A DNA stretch of 60,421 bases, taken from NCBI GenBank assembly GCA_016872495.1, contig VGZT01000009.1, forward strand, positions 1 to 60,421, written 5' to 3'. A model generated the notes under the pieces. That model saw nothing but the letters and a program-made list of their open reading frames with translations, was not told the DNA's origin and ran no database searches. Positions within the stretch are counted from its first letter, which is position 1; the number at the start of each line of letters is the position of its first letter. This DNA comes from SAR202 cluster bacterium. Its GTDB lineage: Bacteria; Chloroflexota; Dehalococcoidia; Lucifugimonadales; Lucifugimonadaceae. Below, one piece after another: positions 27,723 to 34,516 of this stretch. Made by a program: the position numbers and the translations under genes.

Positions 27723-28241
27723 CTAGCTGCCGGTAGCGCTGTACTGCTCGGTCTGATAGGGCGCCTCTTCGCCCGACTCCTGCAGAGAGACGTACTTGGA
27801 GGGGCATCTGACGATGAGCGTCTCGGTATGGAAGATCCTGTCGCCCGTGTACTTCCCTTCGAGGATCAATTCGGAGTGCTCGTTAAAGAAGAGCTGGCCG
27901 ACCTCCCCGCGATAGGCGACTGGCAGCGTATTACCCCGGTCATCCTTCAGTCGAAACGAAACATCCAGGCCGTCGGCGTCCCTCACGAATGAGCCGTCGA
28001 CGAGTTTCCCCGCGACCCGGACGAGCCTGCCTTCGGCGGTCGGGCCAGTCTGTTCGAGTTCACCCACGGTGAGGTAGTAGACGGTCGCGCTGCGGAACGC
28101 CAGGAAGGAGAAGTAACCGAGCGCTCCAATAAACAAGACGGCGGCGATCGCCAGGCGTACACGGGGTGACATCAAGGTCGTGGCCCGGGCGGTTGGCTCC
28201 GGAGCGGGTGAGTTTTCGGGACGAGATTCGTTCGCGTTCAT
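27723..28241 (-). CDS. ccmE: CcmE heme chaperone, CXXXY variant
   Basis: 172 residues from ATG 28241. One membrane helix near residues 33-52 ('RLAIAAVLFIGALGYFSFLA') and then the OB-fold of CcmE: 'YYLTVGELEQTG', 'VRVAGKLVDGSFV', 'LPVAYRGEVGQLFFNEHSEL', 'LEGKYTGDRIFHTETLIV'. Where standard CcmE has HDENY (the His that binds heme covalently), this one has C146-P-S-K-Y150 with codon TGC at 27806-27804. The CXXXY form is known from archaea and some sulfate reducers (called system I*). Last gene of ccmABCDE; starts two bases after ccmD. Confidence 0.92.
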   Translation of the reverse strand: MNANESRPENSPAPEPTARATTLMSPRVRLAIAAVLFIGALGYFSFLAFRSATVYYLTVGELEQTGPTAEGRLVRVAGKLVDGSFVRDADGLDVSFRLKDDRGNTLPVAYRGEVGQLFFNEHSELILEGKYTGDRIFHTETLIVRCPSKYVSLQESGEEAPYQTEQYSATGS

Positions 28242-28243
28242 TT

Positions 28244-28543
28244 TCAAGTACGTTTCGCCGGCGAAGATGATTCCTCGCCGAGGCGCTCCCGCAGGCGGGA
28301 TAGTTCCTTCTCGATCTCCTTCTGTCGCCTGGACACCAGGAACAGGTAGGCGAAGAAACCCGCCCATGTGACGATGTACACCGCGAACAGGTAGCCCAGA
28401 TTCGTGCTCGTGTTGGTGTTCTTTTGCGAGGTGATTGACCCGGCCATCGCCCCGGCCTGTTCGCCCGCGGCCAGGGCAACGGTCGCGATCGAGAGCATGG
28501 CCGCCGCCAGAACGCAGGCCGAAAGATACTTGCCCATCGTCAC
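28244..28543 (-). CDS. ccmD: CcmD-like small membrane protein
   Basis: 99 residues, GTG start overlapping the ccmC stop as GTGA (ATG 28537 is the alternative). First about 26 residues form a hydrophobic signal or anchor ('YLSACVLAAAMLSIATVALA'); the second hydrophobic helix 'NLGYLFAVYIVTWAGFFAYL' followed by a charged coiled segment 'SRRQKEIEKELSRLRERLGE' is the CcmD pattern. Longer than classic CcmD (about 60-70) because of the N-terminal segment. It should stabilise the CcmABC-heme-CcmE release complex. Confidence 0.8.
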   Translation of the reverse strand: MTMGKYLSACVLAAAMLSIATVALAAGEQAGAMAGSITSQKNTNTSTNLGYLFAVYIVTWAGFFAYLFLVSRRQKEIEKELSRLRERLGEESSSPAKRT

Positions 28544-29316
28544 CCTTTGCTCATCGCCTTCAGAGCCCCCGTTGCCGGTCCGCTCACCTCGCTGTGCGCC
28601 ATCTGGATCCTCCGTCCAAGCTCAATCACATCGGCCTCGGACTTTCGTACCCGGTACCGTTCGACCAGCATGTAGGCGAATGCCGAAAACACCGCGATGC
28701 TCGACACCAGCAGCGTGAGCAGCATCTCGGATTCGAGGCTGCCATCCGCCCCCGGACCGGTCACCCGTCCGGGATGTGCGGTCCGCCACAGGTCGGCCGC
28801 GTAGTAGATGATCGGCGCGTCGATGGCGCCGATGACGCCCAGGATGGCGGCAAGGCGCGCGCCCTGGCGACCGGGTGGCGCGTAGGCCCGCAGCATCAGG
28901 TAGCCGATGAAGATAAACCACAGGATCAGGGTCGTGGTGAGCTTGGCGTCCCAGGTCCACCATACGTTCCAAATGGGACGGGCCCAGATCGACCCGGTGA
29001 TCAGGGCCAGGGCACCGACCACCACCCCGGTCTCGGCGCTGGCGTGCGCGAACCAGTCCCAGCGGGGGCGGTTCGTGATCAGGAACCCAACGCTGCCGAT
29101 CGCAACCAGGACGATCGCACCAAGCGCGAGGATGGCAACCGGAACGTGGAAGTAGAGGGCCCGCTGGACCTCGCCGAGATTGGATTCCGTGGGTACCCAG
29201 ATGAAGATCAGCCACAGGGTCAGACCCATCAGCCCGGCGGTCAACGCGAGCCAGATTGTCCTCGCCGGAAAGGCGCGCAAGACATAGCCTCCGCTGCTTC
29301 GATGAACTATGTGCAT
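28540..29316 (-). CDS. ccmC: CcmC heme-handling membrane protein
   Basis: 258 residues from ATG 29316. The tryptophan-rich heme site reads 'WNVWWTWDAKLTTTLILW' (119-124 WWTWDA). Candidate axial ligands are His57 ('ALYFHVPVAIL') and His181 ('DLWRTAHPGRVTG'), matching the conserved pair in the family. About six membrane helices. It loads heme onto CcmE, here a CXXXY variant. An upstream in-frame GTG (29355) would nearly touch ccmB, but the family start fits 29316. Confidence 0.92.
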   Translation of the reverse strand: MHIVHRSSGGYVLRAFPARTIWLALTAGLMGLTLWLIFIWVPTESNLGEVQRALYFHVPVAILALGAIVLVAIGSVGFLITNRPRWDWFAHASAETGVVVGALALITGSIWARPIWNVWWTWDAKLTTTLILWFIFIGYLMLRAYAPPGRQGARLAAILGVIGAIDAPIIYYAADLWRTAHPGRVTGPGADGSLESEMLLTLLVSSIAVFSAFAYMLVERYRVRKSEADVIELGRRIQMAHSEVSGPATGALKAMSKG

Positions 29317-29373
29317 CCTATCACAATCGGCCCGATTTTCAGGTTGCTCCCCCACCCCGACGTCCCTTGCCGG

Positions 29374-30045
29374 TCAGTCCTCCAGGACGTACTGGAAGAG
29401 AAGCACCCCGGCGACCACAAAGACGAGGTCGAACACCGCGATGATCTGGAGCCACTGGGACACCGCCGACCAGCTGGCCCCGGACGCCACCCGGGCGGTC
29501 GCCTCGACCGCGCCGATCAAGACCGGCGATATCACCGGGAGGAACAGGACGGGCAGCATGATCTCGCGGGAGCGGGTGCTCACCGCCATCGCGCCGAACA
29601 CCGTCCCGGCTGCCGCCAGGCCCAGGGACGCCAGGAGAGCGACTGCCAACGTCTCTAGCCTGAGGATGTCGACGCCGAATAGTGCCGCGAACACCGGGAA
29701 TATCACGAGCTCTGACAGGAGGATGAACCCCATGCTGCCCAACGCCTTCCCGAGGAAGATCGTGTCGCGGCTGACCGGGGCCAGCATGAGACCGTCCAGC
29801 GCATCGTGGTCCTTCTCGAGCACGAACGTCCGGTTCAGGCCGATCACACCCGCAAAGGCGATCGCGACCCACAGGATGCCGGGTCCGAGTGCATCGAGGT
29901 TGACCGCGGTCAACTCGATCGCGAAGTTGAAGATGATGAGGACCAGCATGGCGAAGACGACCAGTGAGACCAGGATGTCGCGGTTCCTGAGTTCGAGGAG
30001 GAAGTCCTTGCGCGCGATCGTCAGCAGCGGTCCAAGCGCACCCAT
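29374..30045 (-). CDS. ccmB: CcmB heme exporter permease
   Basis: 223 residues from ATG 30045, placed eight bases after GGAGGG. N-terminal 'TIARKDFLLELRNRDILVSL' and 'FVLEKDHDALDGLMLAPVSR' are CcmB hallmarks, followed by six hydrophobic helices and 'STRSREIMLPVLFLPVISP'. Works with CcmA and CcmC to release heme-bound CcmE. GTG 30051 overlapping the ccmA stop is a possible earlier start. Confidence 0.92.
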   Translation of the reverse strand: MGALGPLLTIARKDFLLELRNRDILVSLVVFAMLVLIIFNFAIELTAVNLDALGPGILWVAIAFAGVIGLNRTFVLEKDHDALDGLMLAPVSRDTIFLGKALGSMGFILLSELVIFPVFAALFGVDILRLETLAVALLASLGLAAAGTVFGAMAVSTRSREIMLPVLFLPVISPVLIGAVEATARVASGASWSAVSQWLQIIAVFDLVFVVAGVLLFQYVLED

Positions 30046-30047
30046 GC

Positions 30048-30776
30048 TCACGCCCCTCCGGTAAGGCGGGTGTAGCTCGCCCGCAGCCCCGGGAGGTCGA
30101 CATCGACGGTCCGGGCATCGGCCACGACGCGCCCGCCGGCAAGCATCAGGATCCGGTCGCACATCTCGATCGACCGTTCCAGGTTGTGGGTCACCAGGAG
30201 CGTAGAGCCCCCGTCCGCGCGCTGCGCGGCCAGGACCGAAACGAGCACCGCCAGCGACGACTGGTCGAGACCGGCGTCCGGCTCGTCGAGCAGGAGAAGG
30301 CGTGGCCGGTGAAGCAGGGCGCGCGCGAGAGCGACACGCTTCTGGAGCCCGTGCGAGAGATTGCGAACCCGATCGTCCAGGCGATCGGCCACGCCCAGCA
30401 CCCCGGCCGCGTCCCGGATTCGCCGAGCCCCGTCGGCGATCCGGTACATGCCGGCATGGAATTCGAGATTCTCGCGGGCCGTCAGGTCCTGGTAGAGCAT
30501 CGGGGCGTGCATCACCACGCCTGTGGTGCGGCGTGCCTCTTCGGGCGCCCGAATCAGATCGTGCCCATTCACAGCGACGCTGCCGGAGTCGAGCTTCGAT
30601 AGCGTGGCGAGGACCCTGAGCAGGGTTGTCTTCCCGGCGCCGTTGGGACCGAGCATGCCGACGGACTCTCCCGGTTGGATCTCGAGGTCCAGGTCGTTGA
30701 GCACGTGGACGCGGCCGAAGCTCTTCTGAAGCCCTGCGGCCGACACTACAGCCTGGCCGGACCCTGGCACGGTCAT
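30048..30776 (-). CDS. ccmA: CcmA ABC ATPase
   Basis: 242 residues. Walker A 'GPNGAGKTTLLRVLATL' (about 43-59), signature 'LSHGLQKRVALARALL', Walker B 'LLLDEPDAGLDQSSL', H-loop 'LVTHNLERS'. First gene of ccmABCDE. With CcmB and CcmC it drives release of heme-CcmE. The 'LSHGLQKR' and 'DAGLD' wording fits the CcmA branch. ATG start; 41 bases separate it from the upstream amidohydrolase gene, so these may share a transcript. Confidence 0.92.
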   Translation of the reverse strand: MTVPGSGQAVVSAAGLQKSFGRVHVLNDLDLEIQPGESVGMLGPNGAGKTTLLRVLATLSKLDSGSVAVNGHDLIRAPEEARRTTGVVMHAPMLYQDLTARENLEFHAGMYRIADGARRIRDAAGVLGVADRLDDRVRNLSHGLQKRVALARALLHRPRLLLLDEPDAGLDQSSLAVLVSVLAAQRADGGSTLLVTHNLERSIEMCDRILMLAGGRVVADARTVDVDLPGLRASYTRLTGGA

Positions 30777-33613: not shown

Positions 33614-34516
33614 CTATCCGATCTGCGCGGCCAGGCCGCCTTCGGTCAGCCAGTAGAAGATGATGAACCCCCCGGCCAGCAGGACGAGGACGGCGGACAC
33701 CGGTTGCATGACCGGCATCACCCTCCTGAAGACGCTGATAACCGCGCCCTTGAAGATCGCCATGCTCACGGTCAAGAGCAGGATCACGGACGTCATGCCC
33801 AGCGCGTAGACGATGAACTGTCCCAACGCGAACGCGAAACCGCCGGTCGCCAGTGAGCTGCTGACCAGCGCGAGGAAGACCGGCAGAGTGCAGCTCAGCG
33901 ACGCCAGCGCGTAGCTGATGCCGAACAGGAAGTAGCCCCGAATCGAGGCGTCGCGCGGGTCGCCGATCTTGCTTGCCGCCCGCGAAGCCATGGCGGTGTA
34001 CAGCTTGCCCCCGCCCAGAATGTACGCGCCCATCAGGACGACGATGATGCCCACGCCGAGCCCGATGTACGGGAATGCGCGGGCGATCGACCGGGCGCCC
34101 GCCGAAAGCACCACACCGGTCGAGCCGAACAGAAGCACGAAACCGGCGCCCACCGCGGCGCTGACCACGATTGCGTTCAAGAGTCGGTGTTCGATCCTGA
34201 CACCCTTGCCTTCCTGTGTGCCGACGTAGAGGCCGAGGTAAGCAGGGAGCATGGCGAACCCGCACGGGTTAACGACGGCAACCATGCCGGCGGCGAAGGC
34301 AAAACCAAGTCCAAGCCCTGCGCCGGCACTGCCGAGGAGCGCGCTTGAACGGGCCGACAAATTCAGGACCCCGCCGACCACCCCGCCGCCGGTTCCGCCG
34401 ACGGCCAGGCCGGTGACAAATGCGAACAGGATCACGCCCAGACCGGCCGCGGCCGGGACGACCACGCCGCGCCTCAGAAGCTTGCTGCTCCCAGCTGGAA
34501 CGTCAGATGTCGCCAA
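33614..34516 (-). CDS. ccdA: CcdA-type cytochrome c biogenesis thiol transporter
   Basis: 300 residues, TTG start with AGGAGAGG three bases upstream. About six to seven helices with the two CcdA cysteines in 'VVNPCGFAMLPAYL' and 'LASLSCTLPVFLALV'. The first helix ('VPAAAGLGVILFAFVTGLAV') is an extra N-terminal segment. Moves electrons from cytoplasmic thioredoxin across the membrane to keep apocytochrome c thiols reduced. No thioredoxin-like CcmG/ResA is adjacent. Its presence 3 kb from ccmABCDE fits the same pathway. Confidence 0.92.
   Translation of the reverse strand: MATSDVPAGSSKLLRRGVVVPAAAGLGVILFAFVTGLAVGGTGGGVVGGVLNLSARSSALLGSAGAGLGLGFAFAAGMVAVVNPCGFAMLPAYLGLYVGTQEGKGVRIEHRLLNAIVVSAAVGAGFVLLFGSTGVVLSAGARSIARAFPYIGLGVGIIVVLMGAYILGGGKLYTAMASRAASKIGDPRDASIRGYFLFGISYALASLSCTLPVFLALVSSSLATGGFAFALGQFIVYALGMTSVILLLTVSMAIFKGAVISVFRRVMPVMQPVSAVLVLLAGGFIIFYWLTEGGLAAQIG

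Follow-up and report, generated by a model that had tools for sequence, protein, structure and literature searches.

The locus considered here raises two related questions: whether a gene of a SAR202 cluster bacterium encodes a genuine CcmE with cysteine in place of the heme-binding histidine, and whether this residue points to System I*, which was first defined by a Cys-type CcmE in the absence of CcmH. The gene lies in the window, the whole stretch of 60,421 nucleotides that was analysed, together with the following features.

27723..28241 (-): ccmE, heme chaperone of 172 aa, assigned by PF03100, motif, structural model and alignment
28244..28543 (-): ccmD-like small membrane protein (NCBIfam TIGR04391 CcmD_alt_fam, 8.1e-12, 44.9 bits, cut-off 24)
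28540..29355 (-): ccmC, heme-handling protein loading CcmE (PF01578, 3e-27; TIGR01191 ccmC, 7e-42, below the model cut-off)
29374..30162 (-): ccmB, membrane subunit of the ABC transporter (PF03379, 4e-32)
30048..30776 (-): ccmA, ATPase subunit (TIGR01189 ccmA, 2.1e-40, 138.5 bits, cut-off 131.6)
33614..34516 (-): possible CcdA-like reductant transporter, a candidate with NPC...P and SC...P motifs recognised by eye

The gene ccmE is the last of a ccmABCDE operon, with ccmABCD upstream on the same strand. The open reading frame of ccmB overlaps ccmA, hence the true start of ccmB is probably located downstream of the start of the reading frame. No promoter-like site was found within the operon region. 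A search of the candidate CcdA-like gene against Pfam gave no confirmation, only a sub-threshold match to SfLAP (2.9e-05).

The product of ccmE consists of an N-terminal membrane helix (residues 26-52) followed by an OB domain, with the internal sequence ...TETLIVRCPSKYVSLQESG... and the C-terminal sequence ...IVRCPSKYVSLQESGEEAPYQTEQYSATGS. It matches the Pfam family CcmE (PF03100) with an E-value of 1.6e-20 and 73.7 bits, the curated cut-off being 24.6 bits. The heme-binding motif reads Cys146-Pro-Ser-Lys-Tyr150 (CPSKY, window positions 27806-27792), with TGC for Cys at 27806-27804 and TAC for Tyr at 27794-27792; there is no HxxxY. In the sequence alignment with E. coli CcmE, Cys146 pairs with His130 ('AKHDENY'), leaving no alternative His at the heme site. 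The gene thus encodes a CcmE with Cys where E. coli has His, and a Tyr four residues later, as in the Cys-type (CXXXY) form.

An AlphaFold2 model of the protein (mean pLDDT 80.9, the OB domain mostly above 90) matches the solved CcmE structures 8ce8, 1lm0, 1j6q, 2kct and 1sr3, with Z scores of 10.9 for 1sr3 (E. coli CcmE) and 11.4 for 1j6q. VIA-align pairs residues 35-130 of 1sr3 with residues 54-146 of the model, such that Cys146 meets residue 130. We note that unrelated OB folds match the model with scores as high as those of the CcmE structures. The fold is therefore consistent with CcmE without being proof of the family, and the assignment rests on the sequence and on the adjacent ccmABCD genes. 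Both the presence of a CXXXY-type CcmE in a Chloroflexota genome and the replacement of the heme-binding His by Cys, as proposed in the initial annotation, are borne out by profile, codons and the sequence and structural alignments.

A search with an alignment of close relatives identified 48 relatives from named records, all from Chloroflexota/Dehalococcoidia. SAR202 cluster genomes are among them, as is Candidatus Lucifugimonas marina, and the highest identity, 72%, is to a groundwater genome. All 48 carry the Cys, within the motifs CPSKY (38), CPSKF (7) and CPTKY (3), and most of them keep the order ccmABCDE. The Cys is likewise found in all 15 other CcmEs from the order of the window. A query with the single protein against viral and named genome contigs returned no matches. 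In a tree comprising Chloroflexota and E. coli, the CcmE of the window falls into starred clades that contain Cys forms only, all of them from the family and order to which it belongs. The Cys in the 48 independent named records and in the same-order CcmEs rules out both chance and a sequencing error; a degenerate His-type CcmE that has lost its ligand would moreover be difficult to reconcile with the intact operon and with nearest starred clades that are all Cys. We regard the possibility of error or degeneration as negligible.

CcmE is encoded in 265 of the 400 Chloroflexota genomes examined. The initial annotation had suggested aligning the His/Cys position across Chloroflexota, and this position, read in 130 CcmE sequences, is Cys in 109, His in 20 and Glu in one, in a sample that is not random (the strongest matches, the order of the window, and one or a few per weakly matching family). 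Counted by family code, 62 families have Cys, 10 have His and none has both, with the relatives of the window included and the window itself left out. A quick tree requires 5 changes between His and Cys within the phylum; a tree in which all His rows are held together has a higher likelihood (p-AU 0.82). A single split is thus compatible with the data, and we do not claim switching between both residues.

Several individual sequences deviate from the common pattern. Phe frequently takes the place of the motif Tyr (32 Cys forms, for example loci L005, L016 and L024), whereas Met (L061), Gln (L079), Leu (L096) and Trp (L129) rarely do; the position of the supposed axial ligand is therefore more variable than the Cys. 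A CcmE with Glu at the heme site (ITRESRKYIPITEE), neither His nor Cys, is encoded at L131:328-825 (-) in G404, an 80% complete draft from the same class that has CcmH and is the only genome analysed from its family. A CcmE-like protein with a weak match (43 bits), encoded at L133:207-635 (+) in G427, ends in ...SNALCNVCHS* and has a cytochrome-type CXXCH at the place expected for CXXXY; G427 is also a draft from this class (69% complete), and likewise the only genome analysed from its family. Tandem pairs of ccmE are found at L003:1501-2403 and L004:9-947, each combining a CPSKY copy with a CPHSY or CPHRY copy. A single open reading frame at L123:359-1066 (-) seemingly contains two CcmE-like OB domains, with a CASKY motif in the second only.

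The Cys form is not new to the phylum. Stevens et al. (2011) named chloroflexi and firmicutes among the organisms with a Cys-variant CcmE, and reported CPSKY as the commonest motif (25 of 36 variant CcmEs, with F for Y in four) and CcmH in approximately one third of the bacteria with Cys-CcmE (PMC3601427). The claim that the gene extends the variant to another lineage consequently fails, as Chloroflexi were already listed in 2011 and Cys is the majority residue in our sample: the observation is correct but ordinary, and the CcmE of the window is a plain member of a described group. In the literature on SAR202 Ccm genes we found nothing on CcmE. Compared to the bacterial Cys-type CcmEs of Desulfovibrio, Chloroflexi and Firmicutes (PMC3601427), the protein has the same CPSKY at the position of His130, the same succession of membrane helix and OB domain, and the same ccmABCDE operon; there is no substantial difference, and CcmH is present here as it is in about a third of those bacteria. 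The archaeal CcmE of Methanosarcina acetivorans (PMC9084895) shares the CXXXY motif, although CcmD, CcmH and CcmI are missing from the archaeal system, whereas the genome of the window encodes a CcmD-like protein and CcmH. The E. coli protein (PDB 1sr3, 8ce8) is alike in family, fold and operon neighbours but has HDENY in place of CPSKY.

CcmF is absent from the window. The search for it covered the whole genome (2.34 Mb in 102 contigs, 98% complete), and contig 1 encodes CcmF (Pfam CcmF_C, 1.2e-50) with CcmH directly upstream (65363-65683 (-), Pfam 1e-28, 100.5 bits, cut-off 25, with a CPVC motif). The cluster preceding CcmH and CcmF resembles alternative complex III and comprises a pentaheme protein with five CXXCH motifs, a monoheme cytochrome c, NrfD-type membrane proteins and an iron-sulphur/molybdopterin-like pair. 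The alternative complex III-type cytochromes are likely clients of the ccm pathway.

Taken by its CcmE motif, which is that of System I* (PMC3601427), the organism might be expected to operate the full system as in Desulfovibrio and archaea, with the Cys-type CcmE acting without CcmH and CcmG. We consider this highly improbable given that a CcmH with a CPVC motif, well above the Pfam cut-off, is encoded directly upstream of CcmF and that 13 of 14 further genomes from the same order also contain CcmH. The connection with System I* drawn in the initial annotation thus holds for the CcmE residue and fails for the system. A hand count in 80 genomes of the phylum whose CcmE type is known gave CcmH in 47 of 62 genomes with Cys, 15 of 17 with His and the single one with Glu, while six Cys-CcmE genomes that are 99-100% complete have no CcmH. 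A Metabacillus (Bacillota) plasmid also encodes a CPSKY CcmE beside CcmF and CcmH. With CcmH both present and absent among genomes with the Cys form, the Cys does not imply loss of CcmH. What we very probably see is a Cys-type CcmE serving a cytochrome c maturation pathway that is standard in other respects.

By analogy with known systems, CcmA, CcmB, CcmC and CcmD would move heme and load CcmE outside the membrane, where it would act as a periplasmic chaperone with Cys146 holding the heme and Tyr150 as its likely axial ligand. CcmE may then carry heme to CcmF and CcmH, encoded elsewhere in the same genome, and these two would complete its attachment to apocytochromes, for example the subunits of alternative complex III. 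Work on Desulfovibrio and Methanosarcina suggests a covalent (thioether) link of heme to Cys146: covalent binding has been reported for a Cys-CcmE of Desulfovibrio (D. desulfuricans; PMC3601427), and in a 2022 study of Methanosarcina the Cys of the archaeal CcmE was required for heme attachment, as M. acetivorans CcmE relies on this residue for its heme stain (PMC9084895). The CcmE domain of D. vulgaris is reported to bind ferric heme non-covalently via C127 (PMC3884852, review), which makes covalent binding by the CcmE of the window less than certain; against the D. desulfuricans and M. acetivorans results, exclusively non-covalent binding nevertheless appears unlikely. A heme-release chemistry different from that of the His form may likewise be expected from studies of other organisms.

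The phylum-wide count indicates that Cys is the normal heme-binding residue of Chloroflexota CcmE, usually in the company of CcmH, and hence the Cys by itself is not sufficient ground for assigning System I*. With some reservation, we favour the view that the Cys-type CcmE of the phylum mostly works together with CcmH, and that possession of the Cys is a trait distinct from having lost CcmH. If true, the SAR202 set of Cys-CcmE and CcmFH could reveal how heme leaves the Cys for a standard synthase.
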